Source: Agelas oroides | Taxonomy: Eukaryota > Porifera > Demospongiae > Agelasida > Agelasidae | DNA: 64,000 bases | Assembly: GCA_949130485.1 (NCBI GenBank) | Contig: OX422185.1 | Span: 10,886,118 to 10,950,117 of the forward strand | Direction: 5' to 3' | In this document: positions 27,466-47,408 of the stretch, piece after piece | Layout: the number at the start of each line of letters is the position of its first letter | Position numbering within the stretch: the first letter of the stretch is position 1 | Made by a program: the position numbers and the translations under genes | Notes under the pieces: model-generated | What the model was told of the DNA's origin: nothing | The model's database searches: none | The model's input: the letters and a program-made list of their open reading frames with translations, nothing else

Positions 27466-30400
27466 GTGCTAGCCTGGCTTACACTCAAAAAAGAAGTCAG
27501 AAGATTGACTTCTGTGACTTCTGTGACTGGTGACTTGTACTATTTCCCCGTTTTAGCGCCAGTTGAACACGTTCAGCCAAGCAATCACGAACTATGTGAC
27601 AACGACTGCCCAAGGGAGGGTACCTACTCCCACAGGCAACACTTAGTAAGTGACAGTGGGGGGATGGGGGGAGGGGGGGAGGGGGAAAAGGGAAGTGGGG
27701 ATGGAAGCCTAGGTGGGGACCAACTGTTGTTGGGTTTTGTGAACTGCAGAGGTTGGTGGTGAAGAGAGGTAGATATAAAGCTAACGTTGCAGGAGTTGAA
27801 GCTAGATGTTCTTGGTTTGGCTGAGACTTTCTTGAGGGAAGAAGAGGAGGCATCAGTAGCAGGTTATGTGTGGTATGGACATAATAGAGAGGGGTGCAAA
27901 CGAGCAAGCGGGGGAGTGGGAATGTTAGTACGGAAAGAGTTGCAGTCTAGGTTGTTGTCATGTCAGAGGGAAGGAGTAGTGTGGATGGAGCTAAAGTTAA
28001 GGGAAGGAAGGAAAGTAGCGGTAGGAGTGATGTATGCTAATCCTGAGGGGGTGAGGACTGATGACACAGAAGATCAATTTGAAGAGGTGCAGGAGGAGAT
28101 AGGTAGGCTACAGGAAGAAGGATATGAGGTTGTTGTAATGGGTGACTTTAATGCACATATTGGGTTGGGTGTTGAGCAACAACCAAACAGAAATGGTCGG
28201 AGACTTTTGAACCTGGTATGGGCCGGTGAACTGATCATTGGGAATGAACTTCCACAGTGTCAGGGGAGGTGGACTTGGGAGTGTGAGCAAAAGAGATCAG
28301 TAATTGACTATATACTGTTCTCAAGGGGACTAGTTGTGGAGAAAATGCAGATTGAGGATTCAGAGAGGAAGGAGATAGGATCTGACCACAATCTCCTATG
28401 GTGTGAAGTGAGAACGGGAAACCTAGAAAAGGCGGTGTTACAGGATCGGTACAAGTGGAGAATTGATGGGAAATGTGACTGGGAGGAGTACCAGGATGCA
28501 GTTATGGCAGAGTTCGCAGACTGGGACGCCCAACTTGGTGAGCTGAACCAGAACCTAGAAGGAGAACAACTAGTTGAGGCAGCATGGGAGAGTTGGATGA
28601 AGAAGGTCATTACAGCAGCAGAAAGAGGGATCAGGAAGAAGAAGATCAGAGAGAACTCAAAAGGTTGGTGGTCAAAAGAGATTGAAGCAGCTATCCAAGC
28701 AAGAAAAGAAGCATGTAGGAAGGTCAGAGAGGCAAGACAAAGGAAGACTGCTACCCTTAATATTAGATGGAAGGACTATAAGGACAAGAGGAAGGCTGTG
28801 AAGAAACTGTTGAGGAGGGAGAAGAAGGAGATGAGGAGAAAGACCTTGAAGAAAATTAGGGAACAGGGGGGAGCCAGCAGTAAACTATTCTGGTCAGATC
28901 TTGTTAGAAGAAAAAGGAAGAGAAAGAGCATACCAAGATTGAAGAGCGAGATGGGACGAGTAGTGGAAAGCCAGGAGGAAGTGGTAGAGGAACTAGCCAA
29001 GCATTGGGAGGAGCTAGGAAGAAGGAAAGAGAGTGAAAGTACTATGGAAGAAGTCAGAATGGAGGGTAGTGAAGTACGGTCAGACATATGTGAGATGGTG
29101 ACATTTGATGAAGTGGTTGGAATCCTGAAACAGTTGAAGAGGGGTAAAGCCACTGGACCAGATGATATTCCCAATGAGATGATGATGTATGGTGGTACGA
29201 GGATGGTGGTGACTATGGTGCAGCTGTTCAACCTTGTTGTACAGCAAGCATGTTGCCCGAAGGACTGGAGGAGGAGCTACGTAGTGCCACTTTACAAGGA
29301 TGGGGACCCAGAGACAGCGAGCAATTATAGAGGAATTGCATTGGGAAGTTGTGTGGCTAAGGCGTTGGCAAAGCTGCTTTCAAGGAGGCTGGGCATATTT
29401 GCTGAGGAGGAGATCTTAACAGAGGCCCAGGGAGGATTTAGATCTGAGAGGAGGTGTGCTGACCAGATATTGATTCTGAGGGGTGTGTGTGAGCTGAGGA
29501 GGAAAGAAAAGAAGGGGACATACATGGCATTTCTGGATGTAAGCAAGGCGTATGATACAGTCTGGCGTGATGGGTTGTGGAGGAAAATGCAGCAGTACGG
29601 GGTAGAGGAGAAGTTTGTCCGCATCTGTAGAGGATTGTATAAAGGGATTGAAGCAAGTGTGGTGTTGGAAGGGGAACAGTCAAGATGGTTTCCGGTTGAA
29701 ACAGGGTTACGCCAAGGTTGCCCATTGTCACCGCTGTTATACAGCATATACGTAATGGACATGATGAAGCAGCTAGAAGAAAAAGGTTTGGGAATGATAA
29801 TGGATGGAATTTGGTGTGGGGGTCTGATGTATGCGGATGACATTGTACTGTTAGCGGAGACAGGTGATGAATTGCAGGAAATGCTGGATGTGGTAGGTCA
29901 CTATGCACAGGAGTGGAGGTTTCGTTTCAATGCACGGAAGAGCAAAACGATGGTAGTTGGAGCAAATAGTGAAGAGAGCTGGTCGATTAACGGAGAGCAA
30001 ATGGAAGAAGTGATAGCATTCAAATACCTAGGTGTTTGGCTGGATCGGAAGATGAGAGGGAATGTGCAAATGGAGAGAATGAGGGAGAAGGCTGAGGAGT
30101 GGGCAGGAAGGACCGAGTGGATGAGTCGAGTTAATGGCCAGATAGAGGTAGAACGAGGAAGGTTGGTATGGGAACTTCTGGCTCGTCCAAGCCTTGAACA
30201 TGCAGCAAGTGTATGGTGGACAGCAGGAAAGGTAGCCAGCAAGCGGTTAGAAGCTGTCCAAGACAGGGTTGGCAGGAAGCTACTTGGAGCAAGCAGGTCT
30301 GTGGCAGGAGTAGCAGTACGAGGAGACCTAGGGTGGAAGAAGCTAGCGGAAAGGAGGGAAGAGAAGAAGGTGCTCTATGGAAGGAGGGTGGAGAGGCTTG

Positions 30401-31255
30401 ATGACAGTAGGTTGGTCAAAATGATAATGGAGAAGATGCAGGATTGTGGAAGTGTTAGCTGGCAGGGTGAGTATAATCTGTTGTTAAGGAAGTATGGGTT
30501 GGAAGGTAGTGAGACAGGGTCAGCAAAGGAGTGGAAAGAGAGGGTTCATGAGAAAACCTGCAGGGATTGGATGGAAGAAATAGAAGGAAAAAGTAGCCTG
30601 AAGTGGTATCAGATGGTGAAGGAAGAGGCAGGATTGGAGGAGTACACAAGGTCTTTGGTAGGTCAGGAAGGGGTAAGGCTCCGGTTTAGGCTGAGAACAG
30701 GATCAGCAGGCCTCTTCGAGGACAAAAAGCGGTGTAGGATGTGTGATGATGAAAGGTGCGTGTTGTGTAACAGTTGCAAAGTAGAGGATGTGGAACACTT
30801 TCTGGTGAGATGCGAGGAGTTTAGGTGGGAGAGGCAGGACTTGTTAGAGAAGATAAGGCAGATGGAAGGAACACAAGAGTGGATAGATGAGTATGGAAGG
30901 GTAGGGGATGAGGGAAAGATGGCACTGCTGTTGGGGAGGAGCGTAAAGAGTTTGGAGAGGGAAGTGGGAGATAGAGTGGATGAGTGTGTTATGGAGGAAG
31001 TGAGGAAGTGGTGGCAGAGGAGGAAGGAACTGGTTTACGGTGGAAGTCCCCATGAACCTGGACCCCTATAACCCCCAAACTCGGCCCCCCCTTAACCATC
31101 AATAACCATGTCATGGTAGTCATAATTATTCAATTACCCAGTTTGTATCGAGTGCTGTATCTGTACTATATCTGTGCTGTACTAGTATAGCCACTACCAT
31201 GCATGCTCATGTACCTGTGATGGCCCAAACGGGCTCAACTATTCCAATTAAATCA
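27466..31255 (+). mobile_element. Non-LTR retrotransposon (APE-type LINE), nearly full length
   Basis: The element includes a G-rich 5' part (about 27655-27715), one long ORF and a 3' untranslated region. That region ends about 31255 after CCCAAACGGGCTCAACTATT and an ATTAAA signal. No long poly(A) tail or clear flanking duplication was found, so the borders are approximate. The 5' border is unknown; TTCTGTGACTGGTGACTTGTA at about 27518 also occurs near 31975. I do not assign a clade. Confidence 0.8.
27763..31071 (+). CDS. LINE ORF: AP endonuclease, reverse transcriptase, zinc knuckle
   Basis: The frame is open from 27763 to the stop at 31069-31071, about 1100 codons. It has no ATG at its left edge, because it is the continuation of a frame cut by TGA 27760-27762. 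Upstream of that stop the same frame reads VNCRGWW, the expected start of the endonuclease fold, so the element has lost its first coding part to one nonsense change. Endonuclease motifs are VVVMGDFNAHIG (near 28140), RSVIDYILFSRGL and GSDHNLLWCEV (near 28380). A basic linker follows. Reverse transcriptase runs about 29100-29950, with GKATGPDDIPNEM, SNYRGIALGS, FLDVSKAYDTVW, GLRQGCPLSPLLY and the catalytic YADD near 29830. The C-terminus holds CRMC--ERCVLC--C and EDVEHFLVRC, a Cys/His knuckle. Its enzymes would copy LINE RNA into target DNA in the nucleus. The frame is otherwise intact, suggesting a recent insertion. Confidence 0.9.
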   Translation, partial: REVDIKLTLQELKLDVLGLAETFLREEEEASVAGYVWYGHNREGCKRASGGVGMLVRKELQSRLLSCQREGVVWMELKLREGRKVAVGVMYANPEGVRTDDTEDQFEEVQEEIGRLQEEGYEVVVMGDFNAHIGLGVEQQPNRNGRRLLNLVWAGELIIGNELPQCQGRWTWECEQKRSVIDYILFSRGLVVEKMQIEDSERKEIGSDHNLLWCEVRTGNLEKAVLQDRYKWRIDGKCDWEEYQDAVMAEFADWDAQLGELNQNLEGEQLVEAAWESWMKKVITAAERGIRKKKIRENSKGWWSKEIEAAIQARKEACRKVREARQRKTATLNIRWKDYKDKRKAVKKLLRREKKEMRRKTLKKIREQGGASSKLFWSDLVRRKRKRKSIPRLKSEMGRVVESQEEVVEELAKHWEELGRRKESESTMEEVRMEGSEVRSDICEMVTFDEVVGILKQLKRGKATGPDDIPNEMMMYGGTRMVVTMVQLFNLVVQQACCPKDWRRSYVVPLYKDGDPETASNYRGIALGSCVAKALAKLLSRRLGIFAEEEILTEAQGGFRSERRCADQILILRGVCELRRKEKKGTYMAFLDVSKAYDTVWRDGLWRKMQQYGVEEKFVRICRGLYKGIEASVVLEGEQSRWFPVETGLRQGCPLSPLLYSIYVMDMMKQLEEKGLGMIMDGIWCGGLMYADDIVLLAETGDELQEMLDVVGHYAQEWRFRFNARKSKTMVVGANSEESWSINGEQMEEVIAFKYLGVWLDRKMRGNVQMERMREKAEEWAGRTEWMSRVNGQIEVERGRLVWELLARPSLEHAASVWWTAGKVASKRLEAVQDRVGRKLLGASRSVAGVAVRGDLGWKKLAERREEKKVLYGRRVERLDDSRLVKMIMEKMQDCGSVSWQGEYNLLLRKYGLEGSETGSAKEWKERVHEKTCRDWMEEIEGKSSLKWYQMVKEEAGLEEYTRSLVGQEGVRLRFRLRTGSAGLFEDKKRCRMCDDERCVLCNSCKVEDVEHFLVRCEEFRWERQDLLEKIRQMEGTQEWIDEYGRVGDEGKMALLLGRSVKSLEREVGDRVDECVMEEVRKWWQRRKELVYGGSPHEPGPL

Positions 31256-40045: not shown

Positions 40046-40815
40046 AGGGCAGAGGATGGCGGCACAGGCAGGAGGGCAGAGGGTGGCGGCATAGGCAGGA
40101 GGGCAGACGATGGTGGCACAGGCAGGAGGGCAGAGGGTGGTGGCACAGGCAGGAGGGCAGAGGGTGGTGGCACAGGCAGGAGGGCAGAGGATGGCGGCAC
40201 AGGCAGGAGGGCAAAGGATGGCGGCACAGGGAGGAGGGCAAAGGATGGCAGCACAGGCAGGAGGGCAGAGGATGGCGGCACAGGCAGGAGGGCAAAGGAT
40301 GGCAGCACAGGCAGGAGGGCAAAGGATGGCGGTACAGGCAGGAGGGCAGAGGATGGCGGCACAGGCAGGAGGTAGAGGGTGGCCGTACAGGCAGGAGGGC
40401 AGAGGATGGCAGCACAGGCAGGAGAGGGCAGAGGGTGGCGGGTGGCACAGGCAGGAGAGCAGAGGGTGGCAGTACAGGCAGGAGGGCAGAGGATGGCAGC
40501 ACAGGCAGGAGAGGGCAGAGAGTGGCGGGTATAGCACAGGCAGGCGAGCAGAGGGTGGCACAGGCAGGAGAGCAAAGGGTGGCGAGTAGAACAGGCAGGA
40601 GAGCAGAGGGTGGCGAGTGGAACAGGCAGGAGAGCAGAGGGTGGCAAGTGGAACAGGCAGGAGAGCAGAGGGTGGCGAGTGGAACAGGCAGGAGAGCAGA
40701 GGGTGGCGGGTGGAACAGGCAGGAGAGCAGAGGGTGGCACAGGCTTGAGAGCAGAGGGTGGCACAGGCATGAGAGCAGAGAGTGGCACAGGCAGGAGAGC
40801 AGAATATGGTGGCAT
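40046..40815. repeat. 27-bp GC-rich minisatellite, about 28 units
   Basis: The canonical unit is GCACAGGCAGGAGGGCAGAG plus GATGGCG. Variants of 24 and 31 bp appear toward the right end (GAACAGGCAGGAGAGCAGAG). Because 27 is a multiple of 3, both strands are open through it (9-residue units such as AAQAGGQRM on plus and ALLPVPPPS on minus). I regard these frames as artefacts. The array ends 3 bases short of the stop codon of the gene at 40819. Confidence 0.9.
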
Positions 40816-41810
40816 AGGTTACAAGTCTACGGCGGCAGAGGAGTCAGTCTGGTGCTGTTTTGCTTGCAGCTGATGATCTTCTTCAGTCTGCCTTTTCCTA
40901 TAGGGTCTCTTCTCTCTGTGCCAGTCAGTTCTTAAAATTTCCAACCTCTCATCTGCACGCACAATCTCCGCTGCAGCATCATGCCTGTTGCTAGAAAAGT
41001 AGGCCGCTTGCTATCATCGTTGTTCTTCTCGACACCTGAATGGGAAACAGATATCACAGGTTCAATGTGGTGGGAACTATGTATAATCAATGCAAGTGAC
41101 AAAGATTATCTTGGGAAACCAAGTACAACATTATTTACAATAGCATGAACACACTATTCTGCTGTACTGCTGAGACAGTTTGGCATACAGGAGTAGCCGT
41201 GCAGTCTATACAATCATATAACTGAATAGAAAAATGTGTGTGTGCTTAATCATAAACTAACCTTGTCCTGAGAACTGCTTGAGGTTGCCAAACCTCCGTA
41301 GCATGGAGGGCACATGGTCCACCATGATATGTATGTATGGCGTGATGGACCGCCGCTGAAACCCCTCACACTGGTCCCCAAGGGCCAGAAAGTTGTTGAC
41401 CCAGTCCTTCGCCTGCAATGTATTATCCACAGTGTACACTTGTACATGTATAACCACTTATCTGCAGTATGCTACTTATCAGTTGCAAGCACATTTGCAA
41501 CCACTTATCTCAAGTATGTCCTTGTCATCTAATTACCTGTTGGTGAAAACCTTCCTTGTCTGTCTCAGATGGCTTCCACTTGGAAACTATTGCATGCAAG
41601 GAGGCTAAATCCTGCATGGAGGGTAAATACAATACACTTTATTGGTTTGGCTCAATGTATACAGAATCAGTGTATTTCTCTTTGGATGTATGACCACCAC
41701 CTAGGTAGGGCCAACCTGTTACCTAGGCAACATCACTGCACCCTATACTGTGCATGGTATTGCTATTTTACACAGAAGGTTCTTTGGATTCAAATGTTAG
41801 AAATGTAATA

Positions 41811-42387
41811 CAGTGGAACCTCCGAACAAAGGACACTTTGGGAACGGGTCTTTTGTCCTTTGTTCGGAGGTTGTCCCTATCTCGGAAGTTCCATTGTATA
41901 ATCCCCAAATAATGTTTTATGGACCCAAGCCTTAAATAAATGAATTGGTGGACTCCTTAACAGCATCTGGACTTGTATAGGCCCCACATCTAGACTAAAT
42001 CTTAAAAACTTCTTGACAACAACGTATTATTTACTGTGTGTGAAAAGTTTAATATGGAAGTTCAGCTGTCTACATGCGTTCATGCGTATGCGTGCGTGTT
42101 TATCTATAAATCGCACGTGGTTAAATTCCTGATTGTACTCTAAATGTGTGGGTGTGCTACAATTTTATAGGTGTGGTTTCCTGGGTGTCCGTTATTTAGA
42201 GGCAACTTTGTATTGAAAGTCACATTGGGAGTTCGAATCTTGTCCGCTGTCCGGAATCAAGAAGCGTCCGTCTCTCGGAGGTTATTTATGTATTAGTACT
42301 ATAGTAATTTCAATCCGTAACACAGCGTTTGTCCGCTGTAGAGAGGTTGTCCGCTTCTCGGAGGGTCCGTTATGGGAGGTTCGACTG
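41811..42387. mobile_element. Tc1/mariner-like (pogo/Tigger-type) MITE, nested
   Basis: CAGTGGAACCTCC at 41811 and GGAGGTTCGACTG at 42375-42387 are terminal inverted repeats flanked by TA. This is typical of pogo-like elements that duplicate TA. The first 88 bp contain a second complete palindrome (CCGAACAAAGGAC / GTCCTTTGTTCGG, ending GTTCCATTGTA), so a shorter element may be nested. It lies in the intron between exons 5 and 6 of the decayed gene. Confidence 0.75.
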
Positions 42388-43451
42388 TATACTTCCACAA
42401 AAAAAGTACCTATAACATTGGAATCATAAAACCAATCTTTGATGGTGCAATTCAGTCAAGTAGATGATTTTCGAGAGGGTCACATATGAGTATCTGTTGC
42501 TTACCAATCTACACACCCTCTCTAAGCTGCATGCTCCTTAAAAAAATGTATTACACATTCACGGAATGCACTTACATTCCAAAGTCGTGCCATGGGTACA
42601 GCCAAGTCACTGGGGAGGATGGTATCAAACTTGGCTGGAAGGGTGCGGAGGACACGCAGCCTGTCAGTGCCATTGAGGGAAGTACAGTCATACTTCCCTG
42701 GCTGAGGTCTGCCGTCACTATTAACACGTTGCCAGATGGTAAACGTCACTTTGCAAGACTGGACAGCCAGCTCCAGTTGACGAATATGGTTGCTGGCTTC
42801 TCCCCAACGTTGTTCCTCGTGGTCTCTGCTGGCAGCTAGGCTGATCAGGTTTTGGATGAGTACATCCGTCACCCGCAGCAAAAGGTGGAGCTCATCAACG
42901 ACCACCTTTGTCAGCTCAATGTTGAGAAGTGGAGAGTGGATGCTGCCAAGATGTTGGTGACAGGGTTTGTTGGCAAAGTGGGACTTTTGCTGTAAGGTCG
43001 ATAACAACCTAGCCTTCTTCTCAGTGTACATGGACTCCTCAACAGACATGTCCCATCTAATAAGGTATACACATGACAAGATTACCAGTGGCAGTGAAGT
43101 GAACATTGGCATAACATGCACAACTACAATTATCATGTACACACCTTGTAGTCAGACCCAAAGACAATGTCTAACTCCCACTCCACTCCATCAACGATAA
43201 TGTATGGGTCCGCAAGAGCTTCATTGAGTTCCTCAAATACAGGGAAAAAGGCTGCACTCAACAGCTCATAGCTTTGATACCCCCTCACTGCTGTAAAGGT
43301 GTGGTTTCCTTAAAAGAAAAGCGGAACCATTTGTAGTGAGCACAGGAGTTAGTAGAGAGTTGTAGCATGAAATGAAAAAAAAAAGGCTGTTATGCCATAG
43401 TATATGGTATGTATGTACGTACTTACCTCTTAAGTGCAACTAACCTTTATT

Positions 43452-43524: not shown

Positions 43525-44869
43525 CACACAGCTACATGTATGTATGAACACAGTCAGGGAATCTTGAGTAAAACACTTACCATATCCAGAAAGGACATTC
43601 TTGGCTGTCCCCGGGAAGGAGAAACTGAAGAGAATGAAGCTTGAGGTGTGTGAGAACTTGGCCCCATCTCAACCTATCTTCACCTGAACCCTTTTCTCAT
43701 GACAGATGTCAGGGTTTTTCTGAATCTGTGATGTCATAAGATAAAACACAACCCACTAGCGGCAACACAAAATCTATTTCTCTTGTACAGCTGTGTAGCC
43801 TAAGCATTAGTGAGTCACAAGTTACATATCAGTGTCTGCGTGCGCCTAGTATAATTCTCATAATACAAGAAATACCCCACGTTGCAGTGCAGCCACCACA
43901 GCTGGCTTGAAATGGCGATAAACGCCATGAAATGGAGCAGGTACCCGTTCAAGCTCGATGTCTTTTCCGGTCTCCTGCCGGGCTTGCTTGACTTGGTAGC
44001 TCCGCGCCAGCTCAGGGTATACCTGTACACACAAGTGAAAATAATAATAAATACACATTTCAGCACCCAAAAACATTTTTAATCTTACCTGTGTCAGCTC
44101 ATGGTAGAACTTGTCACTGACTCCAAACCGCTCCAGCAGATACAAGGTTTGCATCACATTGGAGTGGGAGTTCCTGTCGGTTGGAGCTGTTGACGTGGCT
44201 GGCACTACGGAGGGATGGTTGCCTTGCTGAGAGCTCAATGGAATAACCAACTCATTTCCATCATTGCTCGCTCTTGCAGTGATTGACTTGACCTCAAGTC
44301 CAAAAGTCTCAGCAAACCACAATGCCTTGGTTGCTGATTGTTTGAACTTGGACAGCTTCCTCCGCTTTTGGCGATCGTTAATTGGCTTGGCGCTGTTTGC
44401 CATCACCTCTCGATTCTCTGCCTCTCTTTCCTGCACCAGATGTTCTATGGCCTGTTGTAGGACTGCCACTTCCTGCTCCTTTGACCTCATCACCTCCTCA
44501 ATGTCAGTCACCTGCATCTCAAGTGACTCAATGTCACTCGTGAGATCAGCACAGCTCTCTAACTCCCCTGCACAGATTGCAATTGTATAGTGCCCTCTCC
44601 TGACTTTGTTCCGATTCTCCCCTGAAGCAGCAGAGTACTTCGATTGGAGAGAACCAGCACGCTTAGCCAAGTTGTCCTCTACCCTCCTGCTACCACTCCT
44701 AACCTGAAGAGCTTGCTGGCAAATGCTCTTATTCAGGCAGGCAGTGTATGGCACTCCAACCCTCTCCTTGTGCCACTTGAGCAGAAGATCGTTGGGAATC
44801 TGCAGGCTACAGACTGGCTTTTCTAGCTTGCTCAGGTGGTTGCAGCTAGAAAGCGAGGCTGCTGCACCC

Positions 44870-45724
44870 GGTTTATTCCCACTTCGTCAATTCTCACTTT
44901 GTCAATTCCCACTTCGTCAATTCCCATTTGGTCAACTTCCCACTTTGTCAATTCCCACTTTGTCAATTCCCATTTGGTCAATGTTGACAAAGTGGGAATT
45001 GACAAAGTAGGAATTGACGAAGTGGGAAGTTGACGAAGTGGGAAGATTTACCAAATTATATACTTTTAACCACCATTATAGATCAGTGAATTATTTTAGC
45101 ACATCAGTCAAATCTACTGTCAGGAGATGACCAAACTGTATGGTGGCCCTGGGCGTGATGAAACAGCTGTCAATTTGTCTTCATTCCAAAACCTTAAGTC
45201 ATCGCTCTATCGCAGCAGGCTTCAGAGGTTTCCAACATTGCCTCAAATACGAGAAGAGATTGAGTTCAGGGGAGAGTGGACTCGAACAGCCCCTTAGGAG
45301 GACTTCCTTCTAGTGGACACTGGGCAAAATGATCAAAACCGCCTTGTTCCCTTTGCAACAGTTGGCAATTAGAGAAGTTCGAATTCTGCGAAGCTGAAAC
45401 CATCTATATAGATAGAACTTTCAAGGCCAGTTGTTCTATCAGCTCTTCATGGTGCATGCTGTGTATAATGGTCAGCACATCCGTCACACAGTCAACCACA
45501 TCCCAACATCTAGTTCATATAGACAGCATCATTTTATATACTTTATCAATTCCCACTTCGTCAACTTCCCACTTCGTCAATTCCCACTTTGTCAATTCCC
45601 ACTTTGTCAACATTGACCAAATGGGAATTGACCAAATGGGAATTGACGAAGTGGGAAGTTGACCAAATGGGAATTGACGAAGTGGGAATTGACAAAGTGG
45701 GAATTGACAAAGTGGGAAGATACC
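44870..45724. mobile_element. Mutator-like (MULE) element inserted in an exon
   Basis: The element is 855 bp. It begins GGTTTATTCCCAC and ends with the complement of GGTATCTTCCCAC, flanked by the 8-bp direct repeat CTGCACCC at 44862-44869 and 45725-45732. Each end is an array of a 15-bp unit (TTCCCACTTTGTCAA and variants with TTCGTCAA or TTTGGTCAA) in two opposite blocks, at 44877-45043 and 45546-45719. Between them the plus strand shows decayed MULE transposase: RLQRFPTLPQIREEIEF near 45213-45265, DFLLVDTGQNDQN near 45300, a shifted ETIYIDRTFKA track near 45400 and FYQLFMVHAVYNGQH near 45435. The catalytic core beyond this is missing, so the element cannot move by itself. The 8-bp duplication is close to the usual 8-11 bp of this superfamily. 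Confidence 0.85.
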
Positions 45725-45926
45725 CTGCACCCTCTGTCAGCACCTCCTCCTCAAAAGGCTCCACCTTCTCTACAGGTCTCTTCCTAGGCCTCCCACGGGC
45801 CCTCTTTACATCTTGCTGCTTTCCCTGGTTCTTACTGGACTCACTAGCACTACACTCGGCCATAGCTTTAGCTGTCTCTGAAAGCAACTGCAATCCAACC
45901 CGCCAAAAATATCTTGTACTACCCAA

Positions 45927-46202
45927 GTTTCATGTAAACAACCTGGCTAGCCAGGTTGTATCGGCGTCAGAAAAGCGCTCTGACAATGCATTAGATCTAA
46001 CTTAAAACAACTTACCTGCTTGTCTCTCCCACTGAGACAGATGAAACAAGGCCGCTGGGCTCATAGGCAGTTGTAGTACGGGCGCGAACACGACAGTTCA
46101 GGGACATCTAAGCGAGATAGAAAGCCATGAGCGTATAGTTCTCCATTGAAGCAATGATTATCTAAGATTGTTGACCTGGCTTCTTTTATTTATGTTTACC
46201 AT
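45927..46202. other. 5' flank of the decayed gene
   Basis: This stretch lies upstream of the minus-strand ATG at 45863 and would hold its promoter. No motif was recognised. Confidence 0.3.
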
Positions 46203-46706: not shown

Positions 46707-47335
46707 TTATGGTAGATGTTTAAAAGTTTGTTTCTTTCAAGAGCTGGCTATGGGGATGACTCTTATGATGAAAATGACATTTGTTTTGGCTAATGAGTCT
46801 AAGTGTAGCTACCAGTGAGTCTCCAAACCTGCAGACAGGAGTCACCAACATGCATGGTCATCGTAATCTGCACTTTAGTGCCTGGAGTCTCTAGGAAGGG
46901 CAGTACAGCTTGTCCACCTATTCCCTTCAACCCAGTCACTGGTCATTCACCATCACATTCTTGTTTGTCCATCTCTTAATAGTCCATCTTCTTTGCAACT
47001 GCAAACACTCCCTTCTCTCCTTCATCATTCTGTGGGCCCACTTATCTCCCAGCAGCTACAGCTGTGGATTTCATGCACTCTTTAGCTCTATTATACATGA
47101 AAAGACTCGTTGCCACACACACAAGCATATGCAGTTCTTATGTCAGTACACAGCCTCCACCGCTCAGGTATCAGGAGTGGGATGTTTGTTTCTGAGGTCC
47201 TTTGGTAATCCTAATGGGAATAAAGTAAGTTGCAGCAGCAAATGACTGTACTGGAGTGACACTCGCTTGCAATGTCCTGAGCTTTTGCTGGTTGCCTTTA
47301 TTTGCAGAGTTGAATGATAGCGAAAAAAGACATTG
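46707..47335. other. Intergenic, no gene recognised
   Basis: Open frames occur (for example 46910-47245) but none shows a domain or a splice context. Confidence 0.35.
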
Positions 47336-47408
47336 AGATCCAGCCAGGATTCGAACCTGGGTCCTCTGAATTCCGGTCAGATGCTCTTACCAACTGAGCC
47401 ACTGGAGC
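47336..47408 (-). tRNA. tRNA-like gene, unusual anticodon loop
   Basis: The minus strand folds into a cloverleaf: acceptor GCTCCAG/CTGGATC (one mismatch), D stem GCTC/GAGC, anticodon stem TCTGA/TCAGA, T stem CCAGG/CCTGG with TTCGAAT. The A box TGGCTCAGTTGG and B box GGTTCGAATCC are canonical, and a T6 run 11 bases downstream (47324-47329) could end Pol III transcription. The loop CCGGAAT would give anticodon GGA (Ser), but position 33 is C instead of U and there is no long variable arm as in tRNA-Ser. It is therefore probably a tRNA pseudogene or SINE head. Confidence 0.6.

Follow-up and report, generated by a model that had tools for sequence, protein, structure and literature searches.

A non-autonomous MULE in a coding exon of a probable pseudogene copy in the sponge Agelas oroides

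An 855-bp element interrupts a coding exon of a host gene copy in the window, the 64,000-nt stretch of Agelas oroides DNA analysed here, which lies on contig C3 of a genome of 259 Mb in 141 contigs. Very likely, this is a non-autonomous MULE that inserted by cut-and-paste into a probably dead paralog, and the insertion is probably young and probably neutral. Paralogs with an empty site elsewhere in the genome make this locus a clean case of non-autonomous MULE insertion.

The element (44870..45724, plus strand) is bordered on both sides by a copy of CTGCACCC, an exact 8-bp TSD at 44862..44869 and 45725..45732 with a spacing of 863 bp. Its 175-nt TIRs, at 44870..45044 on the plus strand and 45550..45724 on the minus strand, are 95% complementary (8/175 mismatches), which places them in the "over 100 bp" range of MULEs. 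Both the direct-repeat borders and the mirrored termini had been named in the original prediction, and both were recovered. Repeat analysis and a unit scan resolved the arms into units of ~15 bp, TTCCCACTTCGTCAA-like, that reverse orientation within each TIR and leave either arm able to fold back on itself. The two termini, GGTTTATTCCCAC and GGTATCTTCCCAC, differ from each other at positions 4 and 6. Of the 29 family copies whose ends were assigned, 28 retain this asymmetry of end types (GGTTTATT / GGTATCTT), some of them showing minor variation; the exception, L062, had the GGTTTATT type at both ends.

The host gene is on the minus strand, and its interrupted coding exon starts at ATG 45863 and runs through TEGA. 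Frame reading placed the 5' part of the exon at 45725..45863, and frame reading with paralog alignment placed the 3' part at 44089..44869, each part with one TSD copy inside it and the latter followed by a splice donor GT. When the flanks were joined, no stop interrupted the frame between ATG 45863 and 44089, where the exon ends, so the claim that removal of the element restores the frame holds for this exon. With the insert retained, the host frame enters the element and meets an in-frame stop ending at 45561. The element and the extra TSD copy together add 863 bp, which is not a multiple of 3, and the gene is both interrupted and shifted, as had been proposed.

Host flanks of the insert were matched to related copies L009-L024, with L009 being the window itself. 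A search for relatives with a single TSD copy, suggested alongside the original prediction, showed that L010, which is inverted on the same contig outside the window, and L011 and L012 on contig C2 run through an empty site that holds a single exact GGGTGCAG, the gene-sense form of the TSD. A fourth empty site, in L017 (C15, 81% alike), holds GGGTGCTG instead, a difference of one mismatch. Copies L013-L016 and L018-L024 do not reach across the site, with L014 starting at it, and were left out of the count. The insert is therefore not carried at the same place by all related copies, an arrangement that would have spoken against an insertion here.

A first genome search with the insert, in which 40 of 171 candidates were scored, returned at least 133 matching pieces. 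Forty loci (L001-L008 and L050-L081) were inspected for both ends and for a duplication 6-11 bp long at the flanks. Duplications were present at 29/40, all of them 8 bp long (24 perfect, 5 with a single mismatch), whereas pairing the left flank of one of these 29 with the right flank of another gave 0/812, and the 8-bp duplications are therefore not due to chance. No TSD pair was found at the other 11 of the 40 loci, mostly with one end unrecognised. The window copy differs from L002 at 2/855 bases and from L003 at 3/855, and for this reason we consider the insertion probably young; the remaining 15 of the 17 compared copies share 98.7% to 90.9% identity with it, gaps apart. Flanks of seven near-full copies (L002-L008) showed no similarity to the window flanks, so these copies represent separate insertions. 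With near-identical copies scattered over unrelated sites, the family may have been active recently. The same ends also enclose a different interior at L071, L072, L074, L075, and in the second element of L059.

The interior of the insert contains a decayed MULE transposase remnant (45103..45532, plus strand). Its relative L070 is 88% identical to the insert at the DNA level across 378 bp and contains an open frame of 313 aa that matches the Pfam MULE domain (PF10551, E 8e-19). With tblastn the L070 protein matched the insert in three pieces, in three frames and with stops, the best piece having 71/89 identical amino acids. Pfam matched neither of two short stretches taken from the remnant in the insert itself. 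A peptide from the remnant had 76 genome matches. In 10 rows of the search for transposase relatives, that of the window among them, the aligned part has two TAG stops, an indication that a transposase from elsewhere multiplied the family in its broken state. Among the scored candidates (127/381), none was an intact transposase gene bounded by ends like those of the insert, and rows of at least 60% identity, L070 aside, covered at most 149 of the 313 L070 residues.

Two further loci in the genome had related transposases. L083 (C17:7396348-7398741) is a 2394-bp MULE that, like the insert, has an 8-bp TSD (CTTGATAG), 15-bp repeat ends of a similar unit, and a PF10551 frame (E 2.9e-12). It differs from the insert in length and belongs to a different family, with a protein 39% identical to that of the L070 relative. 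L082 contained a 453-aa frame with FLYWCH (5.2e-11) and MULE (1.2e-10) domains; across L082 3400-5072 this frame lies between inverted 15-bp-periodic repeats, and L082 is possibly an intact MULE of another family. L070 is rearranged, with a 93-aa frame (TNNHLEGWH) in reverse that resembles the later part of the L082 and L083 proteins and gave no Pfam match alone. Across L070 5528-7092, the later coding part is inverted and an end-repeat block stands between the parts, a rearrangement inside a MULE. A solved-structure search with the L070 frame matched nothing.

Judged by its ends, its TSD, and its MULE-related interior, the element is a non-autonomous MULE, and the original prediction of a MULE-type insertion in a coding exon stands. 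The PF10551 transposase of the family is represented by the relatives L070 and L083, the insert's own interior being a remnant. Other superfamilies, too, have 8-bp TSDs and, in the case of Merlin, GG...CC ends, but the interior of the insert derives from a PF10551 MULE transposase, on which ground we rejected a non-MULE superfamily; assignment to Merlin, hAT, or P is extremely improbable. Long ends made of 9-15 bp subterminal repeats have moreover been described for MULEs (PMC5225508).

MULE TSDs are 8-11 bp and MULE TIRs shorter than 100 bp are also known (PMC6446971); the TSDs found here, 8 bp at 29/40 loci against 0/812 in the controls, lie within that range. A study of Aedes aegypti describes 14 MULE families with 8-9 bp TSDs, 12 with TIRs over 100 bp, and 9-15 bp subterminal repeats in 10 of the 12 long-TIR families (PMC5225508). 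One of these mosquito elements, Muta5, has 8- or 9-bp TSDs and over 200 derivative elements, and its TIRs, 151 bp long, contain an 8-bp terminal motif and a 15-bp subterminal repeat present in nine copies (PMC5225508). In arthropod MULEs, a G/C within the first three bases is conserved at most ends (PMC13359780). The insert is a member of this already known long-TIR, subterminal-repeat kind of MULE, and its long TIRs of 15-bp repeats resemble, when compared by architecture, Muta5 and its non-autonomous derivatives. Three differences from Muta5 were apparent: every TSD assigned here is 8 bp (29/29), the units reverse within each arm and allow fold-back, and an intact autonomous partner was not found among the scored candidates (127/381). 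The parts of the cited MULE accounts used here (PMC5225508, PMC6446971, and PMC13359780) contain no description of fold-back within each arm.

The gene-sense TSD holds GT...AG, and Introners (PMC9860276) are likewise non-autonomous, many with TIRs or TSDs, lie in coding exons, and may take splice sites from the TSD. The insert could in this way act as a new intron that keeps the frame, with GT in the first GGGTGCAG and AG in the second. GT..AG on either strand was present in 9/29 family TSDs, but this exceeds column shuffles weakly (mean 5.05, p 0.04 in a post-hoc test). Read by eye and unscored, GTGCAG makes a poor-looking donor context and the stretch before the acceptor is purine-rich; the host copy also carries further lesions. 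Unlike in Introners, the splice contexts look weak here and the host copy is probably a pseudogene. On the weak-looking donor and acceptor contexts we rejected this as the main account: that the insert serves as an intron is very improbable, and a spliced-out MULE behaving as an Introner at the cost of two codons is just as doubtful. The favored reading remains a MULE insertion into a probably dead gene copy.

Host genes of this kind form a multi-copy family, in which one exon had 26 genome matches, 17 of them on C2. Pfam found nothing above cut-off in two host exons, and a solved-structure search with one host exon gave weak matches alone (best E 0.09). A further exon of this multi-copy family (WDMSVEES...) lies at 42565..43070 on the minus strand, with ends approximate and placed by eye. 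For comparison of whole host copies we used L025, L026, L027, and L028, which are longer stretches of loci L010, L011, L012, and L013, respectively. The pN/pS of the interrupted exon was 0.33 against L026, 0.26 against L027, and 0.37 against the partial copy L028, a count from which L025 is absent. These values are a sign that the interrupted exon was under purifying selection in the past, for much of its history.

Two lesions are common to the window copy and its insert-free sister L025. An in-frame TGA at 43669..43671 (minus strand) falls in a later host exon with nine family matches; seven have no stop there, and the other two are the window copy and L025. Paralog alignment also placed a deletion junction at 43108..43110 (minus strand), where a block with an 80-nt exon has been lost. 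This block is kept in L026 and L029 and is missing from the window copy and L025, while L028 did not align there. The 80-nt exon, whose length is not a multiple of 3, had 12 genome matches and none at either C3 copy. A stop occurred in the matched stretch for 8 of these 12, the query having included a few flanking intron residues; in the six of the eight stop-bearing matches that were fetched (L085-L090), the TAG was, by eye, the 3' end of the preceding intron.

Because the TGA and the exon loss are shared with L010/L025, which has no insert, the host copy was probably already dead, a pseudogene, before the element arrived, and because it was probably dead beforehand the insertion was probably neutral. 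The simplest order would be lesions, then duplication, then insertion. The original prediction had placed the insertion in a period when the gene still had an open frame here: the interrupted exon is indeed open, but the stop and the exon loss common to L010/L025 tell against reading that as a living gene. An open frame across a joined site is no proof of a working target, and sister copies need to be read over the whole gene.

That the insert broke a working gene, with the other lesions arising afterwards, would fit the otherwise open exon and its pN/pS of 0.33 against L026 and 0.26 against L027. The TGA and the missing 80-nt exon are, however, present in insert-free L025, and a later origin of both lesions requires either gene conversion between the copies or two coincidences. 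We rejected this account on the shared lesions and regard it as unlikely, noting that gene conversion could mimic the pattern: if conversion had spread the lesions between the two copies once the element was in place, the case for the proposed order would be weaker.

L025 could instead be the other allele of a single locus, misplaced ~51 kb away by an assembly artefact or haplotype mix, in which case the insertion would be polymorphic at one locus. It is on the same contig and 98% like the window exon, with 46 mismatches to the window flanks over ~4 kb, gaps besides. L025 is nevertheless inverted and differs by a private 1.8-kb insertion and a private 11-bp deletion, and we regard a misplaced allele as quite unlikely. 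Were it true, the identity of the insert would be unchanged and the evidence for the order of events would be altered.

Under the preferred account, an internally deleted non-autonomous MULE would have moved by cut-and-paste into the first coding exon seen of one paralog. MULE transposase, presumably supplied in trans, would bind the 175-nt repeat-array ends and make a putative staggered 8-bp cut, and gap repair would then convert the stagger into the CTGCACCC duplication. Such a course would account for the ends, the TSD, the empty sites, and the family, all of which the sequence itself shows.

Several other features were noted in the window and in two paralogs. The 577-bp segment at 41811-42387 has inverted ends CAGTGGAACCTCCGAA / CAGTCGAACCTCCCAT adjoining TA dinucleotides and is missing from L025. 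It looks like a pogo/Tc1-type MITE, which would be a second insertion into the same host copy. A GC-rich minisatellite of ~27-31 bp units occupies 40046-40818 at the far end of the host unit and is also found in L025 and L026. The open frame at 27763-31068 spans 1102 aa, contains endonuclease and reverse transcriptase domains, and resembles an ORF of a non-LTR retrotransposon. On the minus strand at 47335-47408 is a tRNA-like gene (ARAGORN Ser-GGA, 74 nt; Rfam tRNA 60.6 bits). A length of 74 nt is short for a serine tRNA, and this is perhaps a SINE head or mislabelled. At gene-sense position 610, L011 and L012 have a common sharp 5' edge with unrelated sequence beyond it, a sign that the host unit is perhaps mobile in its own right. 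Divergence of the window copy from both begins already at 46117.
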